A DNA stretch of 64,000 nt, taken from contig JAKLLA010000013.1 in NCBI GenBank assembly GCA_023150375.1, positions 62,001 through 126,000 of the forward strand. The letters run 5' to 3'. Below, piece by piece: positions 1,371 to 10,269 of this stretch. Made by a program: the position numbers and the translations under genes. The DNA comes from Burkholderiaceae bacterium. Lineage in GTDB: Bacteria > Pseudomonadota > Gammaproteobacteria > Burkholderiales > Burkholderiaceae_C. The stretch's first letter is position 1. Each line of letters opens with the position of its first letter. The notes beneath the pieces are model-generated. The model made no database searches. It had not been told where the DNA came from and worked only from the letters and a program-made list of their open reading frames with translations.

Positions 1371-1477
1371 CGGCGCCGTGCGCCGTGAGCTGGTTCAGGG
1401 CGCCGTGCGCCGTGAGCTGGTTCAGGGCGCCGCGCGCCGTGGGCTGGCTCAGGGCGCGCAGCGCGGGTGCCGGCTCA
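1371..1477. repeat. 27-bp tandem repeat overlapping a stop codon
   Basis: Four adjoining units at 1371-1397, 1398-1424, 1425-1451 and 1452-1477. The first two are almost identical and the last two are diverged. Each ends in TCA, which is TGA on the minus strand; the last TCA (1475-1477) is the actual stop codon of the DUF1993 gene. Because 27 is a multiple of three, every unit carries a stop in the same frame. Confidence 0.75.
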
Positions 1478-1996
1478 GGGCGCTGCGTCGCCCTGCAGGA
1501 AGTCGGCCTTGCCGAGGTCCACGCCGGCCTGGCGCAGCAGCGCGTAGGTCGTCGTGACGTGGAAGAAGAGGTTCGGCAGCACCCAGTGCTTCAGGTAGGC
1601 CTCGCCGGCCATCACGCGCGGCTCGGCCGCCCGACCCACCGTGAAGCGGATCTCGCGCGCCTCGCTGCCGTCGATCGCCTCGGCGGGCACCGTCCCCAGC
1701 CAGTCCAGCGTGCGGGCGATGCGGGCCTTCAGCTGGTCCAGGGTGGTCTCGTCGTCCGCATCCCGCGGCGCCTGCAGGCCCCCCAGGCGCGCGGCGCCGT
1801 ACTTGGCCACGTCGCAGGCGATGCGCACCTGCGCGGCCAGGGGCAGCATGTCCGGCGCGAGCCGAAGACCCACGAAGACGTCGGGATCGAAGCCGCGCCG
1901 CCGGGCGTTGTCCGACGCCTTGACCAGGCAGTGATACAGGTTGGACAGCGCCGTGCGCAACACCGGCAGGCTGGCGCTGGACATCGTGATCGACAT
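1475..1996 (-). CDS. DUF1993 family protein
   Basis: A 173-residue soluble protein starting MSITMSS; a second in-frame ATG lies four codons later at 1984. It matches the DUF1993 pattern: an N-terminal helix containing LSNLYHCLVKASDNA, a central LAPDMLPLAAQVRIACDVAK helix, and a C-terminal GEAYLKHWVLPNLFFHVTT segment. The fold is expected to be a DinB-like four-helix bundle, but the function of the family is not established. No signal peptide is present. The 3' end coincides with the 27-bp tandem repeat, so the last residues may vary between strains. It is divergent from the CHAT-like gene at 2158. Confidence 0.85.
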   Translation of the reverse strand: MSITMSSASLPVLRTALSNLYHCLVKASDNARRRGFDPDVFVGLRLAPDMLPLAAQVRIACDVAKYGAARLGGLQAPRDADDETTLDQLKARIARTLDWLGTVPAEAIDGSEAREIRFTVGRAAEPRVMAGEAYLKHWVLPNLFFHVTTTYALLRQAGVDLGKADFLQGDAAP

Positions 1997-2123
1997 GGCA
2001 GTTCCCCCGCCCCGGGTGCGACGCCCTGCGCGTCGCCTTCGCGGGGCGGCGCGAATTATCCCCGCCACCCGGGTCGGATCCTGCGCCAGGTCATGCGCGC
2101 GCCCGGGCACCGGGCTGCCGCCA

Positions 2124-2151
2124 TTGAAAGAGTCGAACAGGTAGTTACACT
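2124..2151 (+). promoter_or_regulatory. Sigma-70-like promoter placing +1 at the ATG
   Basis: TTGAAA (2124-2129), a 16-nt spacer and TACACT (2146-2151). The expected start point is about 2158, the same base as the ATG of the downstream gene, which has no Shine-Dalgarno sequence. This predicts a leaderless mRNA. Confidence 0.5.
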
Positions 2152-2157
2152 TTGGGC

Positions 2158-3894
2158 ATGCCTGCCCGACCTGCACCTGTCCGGCCCCCCGCCGACCGCG
2201 CCCGTGCTGGCGCAGGGGCGGCGCGCTGGTGGGCGCCGGTCGCGGCGTTGCTGCTGGCATTCGCCGGCTCGATCGGCCCGGCATTCGCCGCCGCGCGCAC
2301 CGTCTGCAGCGTCACGGTCAACTCCCCCGACGAGCAGGCTGCACTGCGCCGTCACCTGGGCGAGGGCGAGTTCCGCTTCGTCGAGCTGGTGGAGCCGGGC
2401 CGGCGCGACTGGCTGGCCTCGGCCTGCCGCGCCGGCCTGCGCTGCGACGTGCTGGTGATCTCCGGCCACTTCGACGGCCACAACGAGTTCTTCTCCGACG
2501 ATCCGCTGCGACGCGAGTACCTGACCGTCGACGAGCTGGAGCGGGTGTCCTGCAGCGGCAGCTGCCCGGGCCTGTTCGAGCGCCTGCGCGAGGTCTACCT
2601 GTTCGGCTGCAACACCCTCAACCCGCAGCCGCTGGGCAGCGCTTCGGCCGAGGTGATGCGCAACCTGGTGCGCGACGGCGCATCACGCCATGAAGCCGAT
2701 CAGCTGATGTCGTCGCCCGGCGCCCGGCTGGGCGAGAGCAGCCGTGACCGCATGCGACAGGTGTTTCCCGGTGTGCCGGTGATCTACGGCTTCGCCGGCT
2801 TCGCCCCGGTGGGACCGGTGGCCGCCCAGACGCTGGAGCTCTACCTGCAGGCCGGCGGTACCCGTGAGGTGGGACAGGGTCGGCGCAGTGCGCGGCTGCT
2901 CGGGCAGTTCGCCGGCTTCGGCCTGACCGCGGTGGCGGGCGTGACCGAACGTGATGCGCTGGCCGGTGCGCGGCGCGACATGTGCCAGTTCGCCGACGAC
3001 CGCCGCAACGACCTGCAGCGCCTGACCTTCCTGCACCGCCTGCTGCAGCGTCCGGTGGCCGAGGTGATGCTGCACCTGGACCGCATCGAACGCGCGCTGG
3101 ACCGCATCGATCCGCGCCTGCGTCGCCAGGCCGACGTGGCGCGGCGGCTGGAGGCCATCGCGCAGGACCTCGGCGCCCGCTCGCGCGTCTTCGCACTGGC
3201 CCGCGACGCCGGCCCGGGCAGCGCCCGGGTACGTCTGCTCGACCTCGGCCAGCGCCTGGGCTGGCTGAGCGAGGAGCACCGCTGGCTCGAACTGGCCCGC
3301 ATGCTCGGCGAGCTGCAGCAGCGCGCCCAGCTCGGCCCCGGCGACGTCGACCTGGCCTGCGCCCTGAACCGCGGCGGCGACCTGGACGGCGCCTATGCCC
3401 GCCGCGTCGCCGCGGGGGGGCCGACCGACAGCGTCGCCCACGCCGCCCTGCGTGCCTGCCTGGGCAGCAGCGAAGCCCGCGCGCTCACCCTGGCCGGGCT
3501 GGCCAGCCCGCAGGAGGCCGATGTGCGGGCCGCCCGCGCCTACCTGCGCCACCACCCCATCGAGGACCCGCAGGAGCTGCACCGCGTGACCGACGCGATC
3601 GCCGCGATGGCGCCCTCGCCTGCCCAGGCGCAGGCGGTGGAGTCGCTCGGTCGGCTCTACCTGTCCGACCGCGAGGTGCTGCAGCGCCTGCTGCGCCTGT
3701 ACGCCCAGACGCCCTCCCCGGCGGTGCAGGCCGCGGTGGCCGGCAGTCTGCTGCGCGCCGACCCGCGGGTGATGCCGGCCGAGCACAGCGCCGAGCGGGT
3801 CCGGCTGCTGGAGCTGCTGCGCCAGCAGCGCCGCCCCAATGGCGCGGCCGGCGGCATGATCGATGCGCTGATCCACAAGCTGGAAAGTTCCTGA
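2158..3894 (+). CDS. Exported CHAT/caspase-like predicted cysteine protease, paralog 1
   Basis: A 578-residue protein from ATG 2158; a TTG two codons earlier is possible but less likely. Residues 24-45 form a signal peptide (WWAPVAALLLAFAG, cleavage near AFAAA). The N-terminal domain has two signatures of clan CD proteases: a hydrophobic strand followed by SGH (CDVLVISGHFDG, H104) and a hydrophobic strand followed by Cys (EVYLFGCNTL, C151), close to the CHAT-domain SACNT pattern. A conserved VIYGF segment follows near residue 212. The C-terminal half is Leu/Ala/Arg helical with HEAT-like periodicity. Nine cysteines match those of the next gene one for one, consistent with disulfides outside the cytoplasm. 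Protease activity is inferred from motifs only; a non-catalytic role is possible. Confidence 0.6.
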   Translation: MPARPAPVRPPADRARAGAGAARWWAPVAALLLAFAGSIGPAFAAARTVCSVTVNSPDEQAALRRHLGEGEFRFVELVEPGRRDWLASACRAGLRCDVLVISGHFDGHNEFFSDDPLRREYLTVDELERVSCSGSCPGLFERLREVYLFGCNTLNPQPLGSASAEVMRNLVRDGASRHEADQLMSSPGARLGESSRDRMRQVFPGVPVIYGFAGFAPVGPVAAQTLELYLQAGGTREVGQGRRSARLLGQFAGFGLTAVAGVTERDALAGARRDMCQFADDRRNDLQRLTFLHRLLQRPVAEVMLHLDRIERALDRIDPRLRRQADVARRLEAIAQDLGARSRVFALARDAGPGSARVRLLDLGQRLGWLSEEHRWLELARMLGELQQRAQLGPGDVDLACALNRGGDLDGAYARRVAAGGPTDSVAHAALRACLGSSEARALTLAGLASPQEADVRAARAYLRHHPIEDPQELHRVTDAIAAMAPSPAQAQAVESLGRLYLSDREVLQRLLRLYAQTPSPAVQAAVAGSLLRADPRVMPAEHSAERVRLLELLRQQRRPNGAAGGMIDALIHKLESS

Positions 3895-3972
3895 CCGGTG
3901 CGGCAGGGCCCGCGGCGACGGGCCGGTTCCGGCAGCTCGGCACGGCCCGGGCCGGCGCGCGGTTACGTCGGG

Positions 3973-4002
3973 TTGCAGCGCTGCGAGCGGCTGTGAAAGA
4001 CT
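3973..4002 (+). promoter_or_regulatory. Weak sigma-70-like promoter before paralog 2
   Basis: TTGCAG (3973-3978), an 18-nt spacer and AAGACT (3997-4002). As for the first paralog, the expected start point falls at the ATG (4009) and no Shine-Dalgarno sequence is visible. The match is weaker than the upstream one. Confidence 0.3.
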
Positions 4003-4008
4003 GGCGCG

Positions 4009-5814
4009 ATGTCGTGCAGCAGTATCCCGACCCGCCTGTCGAACGCCCTTTCCCGGGTGGCCGCAGATCGCCCACCCGCACGCCGGCCCGAGCGGACAGA
4101 CGGTGGCGCCCGGCCCGCCGGGCCCGCGGCGTCCCGCCGTCGCCTCGTTCGGGCCCGGGCCCTGCCCGGCCTGCTGGCCGCGCTGCTGCTGGCCGGCCTG
4201 GGCGGGCCGGCCGCCGCCGCGCCGCCGCGCACGGTCTGCGCGATCACGATCAACTCCGACGACGAACGCGAGTCCTTCCGCCGCCACCTGCCGCCCGAGC
4301 AGTTCCGCGTCGTCGAGCTGGTGCAGCGCGGCCGCGCCGACTGGCTCGACGCGGCCTGCCGCAGCGGGGTGCGCTGCGACGCGCTGATCGTCTCCGGCCA
4401 TTTCGACGACGGCAGCGAGTTCTACGCCGACCAGCGCGACCACCAGGACGTGCTGACCGTGCCGCAGCTGCAGCAGGCGGCCTGCAGCCCCTCCTGCAGC
4501 GGGCTGTTCGCGCAGCTCCAGGAGGTCTACCTGTTCGGCTGCAAGACCCTGGGCACCGACCCCCGCCTGGGCGCCGGCGCGGAACTGCGCCGCGCCCTGC
4601 AGCGCGATGGCCTGGGCGCGGACGCCGCAGCGCGTGCCGCCGACCAGCTCGCCCAGCGCTACGGCCAGAGCAACCGCGACCGGCTGCGCCACATCTTCCA
4701 GGGCGTGCCGCTGCTGTACGGCTTTCCCGGCCAGGCCCCGCTGGGCCGCTTCGCCGGGCCGCTGCTGGACCGCTACTTCCAGACCGTGCCCGGCGCCGCG
4801 GCCGAGGTGGCCGGCGGCCGCCCGAGCCCGGCCCTGCTCGGCCTGTTCTCGCATGTCGCGCTGCAGGCCACGCCGGGCCTGAGCGCAGCCGATCCCCACG
4901 CGGGCTTCCGCCAGGACCTCTGCGGCCTGACCAACCGCGACGCCGCCCCGGCACAGCGGCTGGCCGCCCAGCACGCGCTGCTGCAGCGCGGTGGCGCCGA
5001 GGCGCGCATGTGGCTGGACCACTTCGAGCGCCTGGACGCCGAGATCGGCCCCCTGCAGCGCGTGCAGCCCGAGGTCGATGCCGCGCTGCGCGCCATCGCC
5101 GCCGATGCCGCCGCGCGCGATTCCTTCCTCGCCTTCGCCCGCGACGCCGACGAGGCCACGGTGCAGACCCGCATGCTGGCACTGGCCCGGCGCTTCGGCT
5201 GGCTCGACGAGGTCCAGGCGCGCGAGGAGCTGGCCGGCGTGATCGCCCGTCGCATGGGCGAGGGCCGCCTGGGCAAGTACGAGGTCGACCATGTCTGCAG
5301 CACCGCCCGGCCGGATCCGGGCCTGCTCGAAGCGCTGCGCGAGCGCCGCGCCGCACCCGCGGCCGAGACGGCCCACGCCGCGGTGCTGGCCTGCCTGGGC
5401 GACCCGCAGGCGCACCGGCACACCGTGCAGGCCCTGCTGGCCCCGCGTGAGGCGGACGCCGAGATCGCCCAGGTCTACCTGCGCCGCCGCAGCCTGGCCG
5501 ACGCCGGCGAACTGCGCGCACTGGCCGACGGCATTCCTCAGCTGCGCGGCAGCGCCGCCCAGCTGCGCGCCCTGGAGGCCCTGACCCGCCAGCGCCTGGA
5601 CGACCCGGCCAGCCTGCAGGTCATCGCGGGGCTGTTTCCGCGCGCGGGCTCGCTCGAGCTGCAGCGCGCCATTGCCGCGCTGCTGCTGCGCGCCGACTGG
5701 CGCAGCCTCGGCCAGCCGGCCGAGCTGGCGCGCCAGCTGCGCCGCCACCGCCTGCATTCGCCCGACGGGCGCGACGTGATCGACATGCTGATCCGCGTGC
5801 TGCAGCAGGCGTGA
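4009..5814 (+). CDS. Exported CHAT/caspase-like predicted cysteine protease, paralog 2
   Basis: A 601-residue tandem duplicate of the preceding gene, colinear over its whole length. The dyad is kept: CDALIVSGHFDD (H131) and EVYLFGCKTL (C178), as are the nine shared cysteines, the LYGFPG segment and the helical-repeat C-terminus (ARDADEATVQTRM corresponds to ARDAGPGSARVRL). The signal-like hydrophobic core (ALPGLLAALLLAGLGG) sits unusually far in, at about residues 51-66, after an Arg-rich stretch with SRRRLV that resembles a twin-arginine motif. An internal GTG at 4057 is another possible start. The gap between the genes is 114 nt. Function is inferred from motifs; substrate is unknown. Confidence 0.6.
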   Translation: MSCSSIPTRLSNALSRVAADRPPARRPERTDGGARPAGPAASRRRLVRARALPGLLAALLLAGLGGPAAAAPPRTVCAITINSDDERESFRRHLPPEQFRVVELVQRGRADWLDAACRSGVRCDALIVSGHFDDGSEFYADQRDHQDVLTVPQLQQAACSPSCSGLFAQLQEVYLFGCKTLGTDPRLGAGAELRRALQRDGLGADAAARAADQLAQRYGQSNRDRLRHIFQGVPLLYGFPGQAPLGRFAGPLLDRYFQTVPGAAAEVAGGRPSPALLGLFSHVALQATPGLSAADPHAGFRQDLCGLTNRDAAPAQRLAAQHALLQRGGAEARMWLDHFERLDAEIGPLQRVQPEVDAALRAIAADAAARDSFLAFARDADEATVQTRMLALARRFGWLDEVQAREELAGVIARRMGEGRLGKYEVDHVCSTARPDPGLLEALRERRAAPAAETAHAAVLACLGDPQAHRHTVQALLAPREADAEIAQVYLRRRSLADAGELRALADGIPQLRGSAAQLRALEALTRQRLDDPASLQVIAGLFPRAGSLELQRAIAALLLRADWRSLGQPAELARQLRRHRLHSPDGRDVIDMLIRVLQQA

Positions 5815-5853
5815 CCGCGCAGGCCTGGACGCGCAGGCCTGGACGCGGTGAGC

Positions 5854-5876
5854 GCACCGGCCAGCCCGGCCGGTGC
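5854..5876. terminator. Perfect hairpin between convergent genes
   Basis: Arms GCACCGGCC (5854-5862) and GGCCGGTGC (5868-5876) flank a 5-nt loop, between the end of the second CHAT-like gene and the end of the DsrE gene. There is no U-tract, so it may act as a hairpin barrier rather than a classical intrinsic terminator. A short direct repeat (GCAGGCCTGGACG) lies just upstream. Confidence 0.4.
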
Positions 5877-5885
5877 AGCGCTCGG

Positions 5886-6248
5886 TCAGAAGGTCAGGAC
5901 CTTGTCGGCCCAGAGGGTCGACTCGGCCAGCTCGGCCAGGGTGCCGATGCGGGTGCCGGGAATCAGCGCCAGCTCGCCCAGCCCGCGCGCCAGCGCACAG
6001 GTGCGGCAGACCACCAGCGGCACCTGGCGCGACACCAGTTCCTCGACCATCTTCTGCAGGCCGTTGCCGCCGCCGTCCTGCTGGTTGGGCAGGGCCAGCA
6101 CGGTGGCATCGGACATCAGGAACACCCGCAGCTCGGGCGTGGCCGGCGCCTCCAGCCCGGCCAGGGCATTGGCCACCCGCAGCGCGGACAGGCAGCGCTC
6201 GCTGCCGTAGGGCGGCGCATGGACGACGATCAGGATCTTCTGCGACAT
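5886..6248 (-). CDS. DsrE/DsrF-like (YchN-type) small protein
   Basis: A 120-residue protein starting MSQKILIVVHAPPYGSERC. It follows the DsrE-like fold pattern: a first beta strand (KILIVVHAPPYG), a middle strand with LRVFLMSDATVLAL, and a VPLVVCRTCALARG segment with two cysteines, followed by a terminal TLAELAESTLWADKVLTF segment. Such proteins form oligomers; DsrE/TusD relatives relay sulfur on a cysteine. Here the CRTC cysteines (near residue 81) are the candidate sulfur-carrying residues, but no tus or dsr partner genes lie nearby, so a sulfur-transfer role is not shown. Soluble, with no signal peptide. It is convergent with the CHAT-like pair. Confidence 0.8.
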   Translation of the reverse strand: MSQKILIVVHAPPYGSERCLSALRVANALAGLEAPATPELRVFLMSDATVLALPNQQDGGGNGLQKMVEELVSRQVPLVVCRTCALARGLGELALIPGTRIGTLAELAESTLWADKVLTF

Positions 6249-7465: not shown

Positions 7466-7606
7466 CCGCTGCCGCACGACGCCCCATGGCGGAAGTCTTG
7501 CTTGCCTTCGCGGCAGGGGCGGCCGCCGCGTAGGAAGTCCGACACACCGACACCAGCAGCCGCCCTCCTGCATGGGCCCCGAACGGGTCCGCCCGGAGCG
7601 CCTGCC

Positions 7607-8398
7607 ATGTCCGATCCGTCCCCGCTGCGACCCCTTCGCCTGCTGATGTACACCCTGATCTGCGCGCTGGTTTCCGCCCTGTTGCTGCTGTGGACCGGGC
7701 CGGTGCTGGCCGCCGAGGTACGCGTCGCGGTGGCCTCGAACTTCGCCCCGGTGATGCCGGCGCTGGCCGAGCGTTTCGAGCGCGACAGTGGCCACCGCCT
7801 GCAGGTGTCGCTCGGCGCCTCGGGGAAGATCTATGCCCAGATCCGCCATGGTGCGCCCTTCGAGGTCTTTCTCAGCGCCGATGCGGACAAACCTGCCCAG
7901 CTCGAACGCGACGGCCTGGCGATGCCGGGCAGCCGCTTCACCTATGCGCTGGGTCGGCTGGTGCTGTGGTCACCCCGCCCCGGCGCGGTCGATGCCGAGG
8001 GCGCCGTGCTGGCCCGCGGCGACTTCCGCAAGCTCGCACTGGCCAACCCCCGCGTGGCGCCCTACGGACAGGCCGCCGTCGAGATCCTGCGTGCGCGCGG
8101 CCTGCTCGAGGCGCTGCAGCCGCGCTTCGTGATGGGCGAGAACATCGCCCAGGCGTACAAGTTCGTCGCCAGCGGCAATGCCGAGCTGGGCTTCGTCGCG
8201 CTCTCGCAGGTCTGGCAGGGCGGCCGGCTCACCTCGGGTTCGGGCTGGATCGTGCCTGCGGCGCTGCACGCACCGATCCGGCAGGAGGCCGCCCTGCTCG
8301 AGGCCGGCCGCCACCAGCCGGCGGCCCGGGCCTTCCTCGCCTTCCTGAGATCGCCCGCGGCCCATGCCATCATCCAGGCGCATGGCTACGGACTCTGA
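7607..8398 (+). CDS. modA: Molybdate-binding periplasmic protein ModA
   Basis: A 263-residue substrate-binding protein, start ATG 7607 with GGAG about 10 nt upstream. An N-terminal signal peptide (hydrophobic LLMYTLICALVSALLLLW, cleavage near VLAAE) precedes the mature sequence EVRVAVASNFAPVMPALAERF, the classical ModA opening. LGASGKIYAQIRHGAPFEVF contributes oxyanion-binding residues, and VAPYGQAAVEIL and GENIAQAYKFVASGNAELGF are further family blocks. It binds molybdate or tungstate and delivers it to ModBC. It heads the modABC operon, 45 nt before modB. No ModE-type operator was recognised upstream. Confidence 0.93.
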   Translation: MSDPSPLRPLRLLMYTLICALVSALLLLWTGPVLAAEVRVAVASNFAPVMPALAERFERDSGHRLQVSLGASGKIYAQIRHGAPFEVFLSADADKPAQLERDGLAMPGSRFTYALGRLVLWSPRPGAVDAEGAVLARGDFRKLALANPRVAPYGQAAVEILRARGLLEALQPRFVMGENIAQAYKFVASGNAELGFVALSQVWQGGRLTSGSGWIVPAALHAPIRQEAALLEAGRHQPAARAFLAFLRSPAAHAIIQAHGYGL

Positions 8399-8443
8399 CC
8401 TCCTGCGCGCGGACTGTCCCCGGCTTCGCACGGAACGCCCCGC

Positions 8444-9139
8444 ATGATCGGCCTGAGCGCTGCCGACACCCAGGCCCTGCTGCTGACGCTGAAGCTGGCC
8501 GCCGTCGTCACCGCCTTGCTGGTCGTGCTCGCCACGCCGCTGGCCTGGTGGCTGGCGCGCAGCCGCAGCCGCTGGCGCGGCGTCGTGGCGGCGGTGGTCG
8601 CCTTGCCGCTGGTGCTGCCGCCGACCGTGCTGGGCTTCTACCTGCTGGTCGCGATGGGGCCGCAGGGGCCGCTGGGACAGCTCGCCGCGGCGCTGGGCGC
8701 GGGCCGGCTGCCGTTCACTTTCTGGGGGCTGGTGCTGGGCTCGCTGGTCTACTCGCTGCCCTTCATGGTGCAGCCGCTGCAGAACGCCTTCGAGGCCATC
8801 GGCGATCGCCCGCTGGAAGTCGCGGCCACACTGCGCGCCTCGCCGCTGGACGCCTTCTTCACGGTGGCGCTGCCGCTGGCCGCACCCGGCTTCCTGACCG
8901 GCGCCGTCCTGACCTTCGCCCACACGCTGGGCGAGTTCGGCGTGGTGCTGATGATCGGCGGCAACATCCCCGGCGAAACGCGGGTGGCCTCGGTGCAGAT
9001 CTACGACCATGTCGAGGCGCTGGCCTACGCCGATGCGCATCGCCTGTCGGCCGTGCTGCTGGCCTTCTCCTTCGTCGTGCTGCTGCTCGTCTACGGCTGG
9101 AACGGCCGGCGTCGTGGTCAGGGCAGGCTGTCGCCATGA
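8444..9139 (+). CDS. modB: Molybdate ABC transporter permease ModB
   Basis: A 231-residue inner-membrane permease with about five transmembrane segments, including [40 protein letters not shown] and the C-terminal [15 protein letters not shown]. The coupling loop that contacts the ATPase is at [20 protein letters not shown], followed by [20 protein letters not shown] and [11 protein letters not shown], both typical of ModB/CysT-type permeases. It forms the channel for molybdate delivered by ModA. The stop codon overlaps the modC ATG (ATGA), indicating translational coupling. Confidence 0.94.
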
Positions 9140-10269
9140 GCCCACCGCTGCCGCTCGCCCCCCCGACTGCGCGGCCCGCGCCGCGTCCTGGCATCGAGCT
9201 GGCGCTGCGGCTGGATCGCCCCGGCTTCACGCTGGACGTGCAGACCCTGCTGCCGGGCCGGGGCGTCACCGCGCTGTTCGGCCCCTCCGGCTCGGGCAAG
9301 ACCACGCTGCTGCGCTGCATTGCCGGGCTGGAACGCGCGCCGGGCGGCCGGGTGGTGTTCCAGGGCGAGGTCTGGCAGGACGGCCGGCAGTGGCTGCCGA
9401 CGCACCGCCGCGCGCTGGGCTACGTGTTCCAGGAGGCCAGCCTGTTCGCGCACCTGGACGTGGCGGGCAACCTGCGCTACGGCTTGAAGCGCCTGGGCGC
9501 GGACGACCAGGCCCTCGAGCAGGCCGTCGCGCTGCTGGGCATCGGCCATCTGCTCGAGCGTCGACCGCAGGGCCTGTCGGGTGGTGAACGCCAGCGGGTG
9601 GGCATCGCACGGGCCCTGGCACTGCGCCCGCGCGTCCTGCTGATGGACGAGCCGCTGGCCGCGCTGGACCCGGCGCGTCGGCGCGAGGTTCTGCCCTACC
9701 TCGAGCGACTGCGCGAGGAGCTGGACATCCCGGTGCTGTACGTCAGCCATGCGGTCGACGAGGTGGCCCGCCTGGCCGATCACCTGCTGCTGCTCGACGG
9801 CGGGCGGGTGCAGGCCCAGGGCCCGCTGGACGAGCTGCTGACCCGGCTGGACGGCCCGCTGCGCCTGGGCGAGGACGCCGGTGTGGTGCTGGCCGGCACG
9901 CTCGCCGAACGCGACACGGCCTGGCATCTGGTGCGGGTGGACTTTCCCGGCGGCCGGCTCTGGACGCGCGACCCAGGCCTGCCGCTGGGCCGCCCGGTGC
10001 GGGTCCGGGTGCTGGCGCGCGATGTCAGCCTGGCCCGCCAGCCGCCCTGGAGCAGCAGCATCCAGAACGTGCTGACCGGCGTGGTCGATGCCGTCGCCGG
10101 CGAGGCCCATCCCGCCGTCGCGCTGCTGCGCATCGAGGTCACCGACAGCAGCGGTGCGCACGCGCGCCTGCTCGCCCGCGTGACGCGCCGCGCCGCCGCC
10201 CTGCTCGACCTGCAGCCCGGCACCCCGGTGTGGGTGCAGGTCAAGTCGGCCGCCTTGCTGGAAGGTTGA
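9136..10269 (+). CDS. modC: Molybdate ABC transporter ATPase ModC
   Basis: A 377-residue ATP-binding subunit. It shows Walker A (GPSGSGKTT, about residue 53), the signature LSGGERQR, Walker B ([12 protein letters not shown]), and a switch histidine in [10 protein letters not shown]. The C-terminal 120 residues form a Mop/TOBE-like domain ([15 protein letters not shown] and the VKSAALLEG end) that in other ModC proteins binds oxyanion and regulates activity. It powers molybdate uptake with ModB. The first 20 residues are Pro/Ala-rich and longer than usual. It is the last gene of the operon; a strong intrinsic terminator follows at 10408-10436. Confidence 0.94.

Follow-up and report, generated by a model that had tools for sequence, protein, structure and literature searches.

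We analysed a 64,000-nucleotide stretch of the genome of a Burkholderiaceae bacterium (assembly GCA_023150375.1, contig JAKLLA010000013.1; G000:C7:62001-126000; hereafter the window), in which two adjoining plus-strand genes, A and B, encode paralogous proteins. Our results suggest that A and B are probably exported, disulfide-braced cysteine endopeptidases with a caspase (MEROPS clan CD) fold and a C-terminal HEAT-like solenoid, which would most likely process or degrade proteins of the envelope or the outside. The core of a first-pass annotation made from the letters of the window, which had read the genes as exported caspase-fold proteins in tandem, is supported by this analysis.

The positions and lengths first given for the two open reading frames (ORFs; 578 and 601 residues, 44% identical) hold, as do the His of the SGH motif (residue 104 in A, 131 in B), the Cys of the FGC motif (151 and 178) and the YGF segment (VIYGF / LLYGF). 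Nine cysteines line up between the proteins, as had been claimed, but A has nine in all and B ten, the extra one being residue 3 of B. The content of guanine plus cytosine is 75.7% over 2158-5814, and other frames carry long ORFs too. The plus-strand ORFs are nevertheless real, because five Piscinibacter records encode similar proteins in the same order (53-61% identity to A in alignment; 54-56% to B over the best segment). A and B are the sole matches in the window's genome at an expectation value (E) up to 0.01. Their features are as follows, with mature numbering of A starting after its residues 1-45.

2158..3894, plus strand: gene A, 578 residues, predicted exported caspase-fold protein with a HEAT-like C-terminus (ORF list, alignment, model and structure matches)
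2158..2292, plus strand: gene A signal-peptide-like N-terminus, residues 1-45 (sequence, crude rule)
2293..2937, plus strand: gene A predicted caspase-fold domain, mature residues 1-215
2332..2334, plus strand: gene A Glu59 (mature E14), where helix 1 begins in the model, proposed acidic S1-pocket residue (118/118 cores; role suggested by PMC4357240)
2467..2469, plus strand: gene A His104 (mature H59), after strand 3 (116/118 cores; model)
2608..2610, plus strand: gene A Cys151 (mature C106), after strand 4 (117/118 cores; model)
2962..3891, plus strand: gene A helical-repeat (HEAT-like) C-terminal half
4009..5814, plus strand: gene B, 601 residues, paralog of A
4009..4224, plus strand: gene B N-terminus with a signal-like hydrophobic stretch; translation may in fact begin downstream of 4009
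4264..4266, plus strand: gene B Glu86, counterpart of A Glu59 (alignment, cores)
4399..4401, plus strand: gene B His131 (alignment, cores)
4540..4542, plus strand: gene B Cys178 (alignment, cores)
4894..5811, plus strand: gene B helical-repeat C-terminal half (aligned to that of A)

The fold was predicted for gene A, and gene B was read by alignment. In the gene A model, strand 3 (mature residues 53-57) is followed by H59 and strand 4 (100-104) by C106, that is, the His ends strand 3 and the Cys ends strand 4 as in clan CD. The core strand order b1-a1-b2-a2-b3-a3-b4 agrees with the description in PMC4357240. Structure matches support the assignment: the top solved-structure match of residues 1-215 is a CHAT protease, and the model has the CHAT fold. 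The caspase-like fold postulated in the first-pass annotation, with the catalytic pair placed behind two strands, is thus borne out by the model. Gene A also matches HEAT/ARM solenoids, at Z scores common for helical repeats. HEAT_2 exceeds the Pfam cut-off in the relatives L014 (40.4 bits) and L018 (33.3), and the window proteins fall below it.

The catalytic residues are kept in nearly all of the family. From 200 matching ORFs we obtained 118 distinct cores by removing duplicates and partial cores, with L025, L130, L137 and L142 excluded. His is present in 116 and Cys in 117 of them, the Ser two before His in 117, and a Glu 45 before His in all 118; the dyad is broken in two of them, L188, which has Glu in place of His but keeps Cys, and L136, which lacks both residues. 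In an 18-member full-length alignment, His, Cys and 29 further columns are invariant. The SGH and FGC motifs are therefore not chance, and the homologs retain the residues on which the first reading had leaned. In a broader alignment (A5, 42 rows), only S57, H59 and C106 are invariant; L130 and L136, which have no dyad, were omitted from it together with L134, L137, a paralog from L124 and a number of near-copies. Alignment A7 comprises 101 of the 118 cores; it omits L136 and L188, which lack the dyad and the His respectively, and 15 further cores, mostly Burkholderiales paralogs. Since L136 and L188 were left out, the invariant H59 of A7 is conditional, and the fair count is 116/118.

These counts bear on whether the proteins are caspase-fold pseudoenzymes, in which the fold would be a binding scaffold and the HEAT arm would do the work. 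Raptor, whose caspase-like domain is a binding scaffold, offers a precedent, yet His and Cys were kept here while most other columns of A5 drifted, and both window paralogs have the dyad, so we consider pseudoenzymes improbable. Dead copies do seem to exist in the family, since both catalytic residues are missing in L136:1242-4274 and in L130:2419-3153, a short relative outside the 118.

In clan CD, endopeptidase activity is driven by the P1 residue. According to PMC4357240 and PMC12445089, Arg or Lys is bound at P1 by those clan CD enzymes that have an acid on helix 1 (MALT1 Asp365, RgpB Asp163, TbMCA2 Asp95). Because the invariant Glu matches this acid in its place in sequence and secondary structure, a basic P1 residue is predicted, and cleavage after Arg or Lys would be the most likely specificity, as judged from E14 by itself.

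Several variants were observed around this core. Divergent branches carry SGHH and GCRT motifs, and another is WD40-tailed: in this Bdellovibrionota-type branch (L124:1013-8890, L051:1300-3447), an SGH/ACNN core is followed by a WD40 beta-propeller that replaces HEAT (Pfam match in L051). L124 has three family genes in tandem, the middle one from a different branch. A very distant protein of the window's order, L025:1249-2589, has the motifs VVISGHHSGG and YLFGCETV and is a possible bridge to other caspase-fold families. In the window itself, a 21-base stretch leading into the codon of the catalytic Cys does not differ between A (2591-2611) and B (4523-4543), and longer surrounding stretches are 76-81% alike.

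At the sequence level the family stands apart. Neither Pfam, searched also with the 101 cores, nor NCBIfam has a model that covers the core, and A and B had no match in PADLOC or PHROGs at E up to 1. For CHAT (PF12770), no member exceeded the Pfam cut-off, the best being 1 of 101 members at E 0.06. The A7 profile scored 30.6 against 20 CHAT domains (of 24 listed matches; E 0.0011, hhalign probability 20%), with His on His and Cys on Cys. This score was reached by none of 200 column-shuffled CHAT alignments (maximum 19.3), and the reversed control gave 11.9. It dropped to 12.8 when both catalytic columns were masked; the link in sequence is therefore one of motif and spacing only. As a reference, CHAT against C14 scored 60.3. 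Peptidase C14 (PF00656) membership was rejected at this level, the profile score against 26 of 30 loci being 14.9, which is noise, with no match above the Pfam cut-off. A full-length profile against PDB sequences retrieved mostly alpha-Rep and other helical designs and none to the core at significance. Caspases topped the PDB list for A5 and A7 at E about 0.1 and above and were absent with alignment A4. No curated model thus places the proteins above cut-off in CHAT or C14, two of the families to which the first-pass annotation had pointed, and it is the predicted fold, not sequence, that carries the argument for clan CD. We conclude that A and B represent a new, unnamed family with a clan CD fold, most CHAT-like in structure and not a member of CHAT or C14 by sequence. 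Among the open-licence papers listed on Bdellovibrio, CHAT, caspase-like and clan CD proteases, no title or abstract opening describes the family.

A rival reading is that A and B are a different exported His/Cys enzyme that shares a look-alike motif or residue order only. Sortases, L,D-transpeptidases and DJ-1/PfpI-like proteins all use Cys and His, and some of them are envelope enzymes. However, the topology and structure matches of the gene A model are caspase-like, and none of these families is among the best 25 of 30 Pfam families that matched the 101 cores at E up to 1. A DJ-1 relation was rejected, the profile score against 17 DJ-1 domains (of 28 listed matches) being noise at 15.9. A different enzyme class is therefore highly improbable.

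Export of these caspase-fold proteins is indicated by two lines of evidence. A signal-like N-terminus, as the first-pass annotation had noted in A and B, is found in 114 of the 118 members by a crude home-made rule (a hydrophobic stretch, then small-x-small), and three cysteine pairs co-vary across the cores (mature numbering). C5 and C51 are both present in 115, both absent in 3 and mixed in none; for C45 and C91 the counts are 102, 15 and 1. C87 and C231 occur together in 108 of 115, with 6 lacking both and 1 mixed, when any Cys within 6 columns of 231 is accepted. C106 is the sole unpaired Cys conserved across the family core. In the gene A model, strand 1 (2-8) contains C5, and strand 3 (53-57) starts two residues after C51. 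A C5-C51 bridge would be plausible because strands 1 and 3 are adjacent in the caspase sheet, as described in PMC4357240. The joint losses are few on the quick tree, about two for C45/C91 and one for C5/C51; the co-variation is therefore suggestive, not proof. Export had also been called unusual for such proteins. It is less so than stated, given that a survey of prokaryotic metacaspases (PMC3501461) lists 46 sequences with a single N-terminal helix, maybe a signal peptide, and groups 30 as extracellular.

The two genes appear to have a long common history. A careful tree built from 26 full-length proteins groups the nine A copies with support 99/100 and the eight B copies with 98/100, and the two subtrees have much the same lineage order, with G298 placed differently between them. 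This agreement argues for one tandem duplication that was inherited as a pair. A adjoins B in the window, in G012, in G298 (~530 bases between frames) and in the five Piscinibacter records. The same order also includes two genomes of another family, G057 and G284, with an adjacent pair of their own, X1 and X2 (83/80). In X2 (L007:1501-3315 in G057; L029:1051-2640 in G284), about 24 residues are missing between the Cys strand and the YGF segment, and the dyad is kept.

One paralog might regulate the other, as a proprotease with its activator or as an inhibitor-like partner. Eight of the nine genomes that have an A copy keep the tandem, the residue after Cys differs (N in A, K in the window's B, D or E in the G057/G284 pair), and B of three Piscinibacter records (L009, L010 and L012) lost one cysteine pair, all of which would fit such a division of roles. 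However, both copies retain the dyad in all aligned pairs, and G010 has A without B, so that B is not strictly needed. We regard regulation as a possible but unlikely arrangement. As two active endopeptidases kept together, A and B would most likely have different cleavage sites or work as a pair of unlike partners.

To trace the distribution of the family, genome contigs were scanned, which gave 11 loci: the five Piscinibacter records and six single metagenome-assembled genomes (MAGs), labelled Betaproteobacteria, Deltaproteobacteria, Proteobacteria, Pseudobdellovibrionaceae, Bacteriovoracaceae and Bdellovibrionales. Among whole genomes, with the own or centre genome counted, carriers numbered 4/60 relatives, 6/399 in the window's order (G322 only through a weak match to the distant protein L025), 2/398 in the window's phylum and 77/290 in the phylum of the Bdellovibrionales MAG. 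Since few first-look candidates were scored per genome, all of these are minimum counts. The window's nearest named relatives are Piscinibacter, on which basis its order was taken as Burkholderiales and its phylum as Pseudomonadota. The Bdellovibrio-like phylum is known for predators. The main Burkholderiales group, with 21 sequences, makes up a single branch in the quick tree (approximate likelihood ratio support, SH-aLRT, of 100) and against five outgroups (100/100), and the Betaproteobacteria MAG L019 falls outside it with weak support (31, quick tree). L136 was omitted from the quick tree, and no root was inferred. The single Burkholderiales branch and the distribution suggest that the window's lineage may have acquired the family from Bdellovibrio-like bacteria.

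The immediate surroundings of the pair contain the following further features.

1475-2284, minus strand: DUF1993 gene
2124..2151, plus strand: sigma-70-like promoter candidate TTGAAA-16-TACACT, a consensus match only, ending 6 bases 5' of gene A
5886-6248, minus strand: DsrE gene, downstream of the pair

The promoter candidate is the one sigma-70-like site in 1900-6000, against 0.0 expected in shuffles, and no terminator-like site was found over the same range. DUF502, DUF2322 and molybdate-type transporter genes also flank the pair.

Neighbours were compared across 32 loci of 6 to 21.6 kb, with ORFs of 90 residues or more. The family genes and other-frame ORFs over them aside, no gene group occurred in more than 5 of the 32 loci, and a co-conserved partner gene was therefore rejected. 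Co-conserved neighbours, for which the first-pass annotation had proposed to look, thus reduce in the window's order to the paralog, which alone is common to most carriers. DUF1993, DsrE, DUF502, DUF2322, PCu(A)C and DUF2946 were matched nowhere else among the 32 loci, and the downstream DsrE gene was seen in 1 of 24 genomes of the genus sample, the window's own. Molybdate-type ABC transporter genes lie downstream of the pair in the window (7502-10269) and upstream in L009 (L009:2251-4980; ModA 56%, ModB 74%, ModC region 60%). A ModA counterpart stands alone at the edge of L012 (L012:1-438), on the other side of the pair compared with the window. In the other nine Betaproteobacteria-type loci compared (L010, L011, L013, L019, L079-L083) the transporter had no match, except a weak ATPase in L083. 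In the Bdellovibrionota-type loci L092-L096 (L094 annotated, the other four identified by similarity), the family gene lies on the opposite strand within a division/cell-wall cluster, between a Mur ligase gene and ftsQ. In L094:3585-9102 it is beside chemotaxis-receptor, Usp and 2-hydroxyacid dehydrogenase genes. Different neighbours occur in a second group (L090, L091 and L097; L090 annotated), and we treat the recurring neighbours of both groups as local synteny.

We then propose a mechanistic model for A and B. The N-terminal signal would carry both proteins across the inner membrane. In the oxidising periplasm or at the cell exterior, three disulfides may form in A (C50-C96, C90-C136 and C132-C276, as the co-variation suggests), leaving C151 free to act as the nucleophile, activated by H104 as their positions in the model predict. 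The solenoid would hold a substrate, partner or inhibitor. The likeliest job would be to process or degrade envelope or external proteins, with envelope processing or the digestion of foreign protein as the best guess; predation would be possible for the Bdellovibrionota members. The gene family is commonest here in Bdellovibrio-like bacteria, from which the window's relatives probably acquired it.

It is tempting, if rather doubtful, to extend this to an undescribed Arg/Lys-specific clan CD family of the periplasm or prey-facing space in Bdellovibrio-like predators, braced by three disulfides and steered by HEAT repeats, that would serve predation or envelope remodelling; one copy would have moved to the window's lineage and duplicated into a two-protease system. 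Bacterial caspase-fold proteases are mostly discussed as parts of defence or cell death. Here, an apparently exported family with a near-invariant catalytic core and a repeat arm, for which the libraries searched hold no curated model, is present in 77 of 290 genomes of a phylum known for its predators. Its members are testable candidates for proteolysis in predation or envelope processing. The family also points to genes having moved between Bdellovibrio-like bacteria and Burkholderiales, and could become the founder of a new clan CD peptidase family.

Compared with known systems, A and B differ from CHAT proteases (PF12770; SAVED-CHAT 8tl0) in being apparently exported and cysteine-paired and in having an N-terminal caspase domain followed by HEAT, whereas CHAT is usually C-terminal, behind TPR or SAVED. 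A scan of ten ORFs next to the pair in the window found no CRISPR or cyclic-nucleotide gene, and PADLOC gave no match. Caspases and metacaspases (C14, PF00656) are separated from A and B by a profile score at the level of noise. Compared with the secreted clostripain-type peptidases (C11; 6n9j), A and B have a HEAT arm and three cysteine pairs, and Pfam C11 is not among the matches listed for them. Separase (C50) has no significant sequence similarity to the family (1 of 101 cores at E 0.2) and has the reverse domain order, and both separase and Raptor are intracellular and eukaryotic. In overall architecture, however, A and B resemble these two proteins, which likewise combine a caspase-like fold with a helical solenoid in one chain, and Raptor (6zpn) is among the structure matches of the gene A model.

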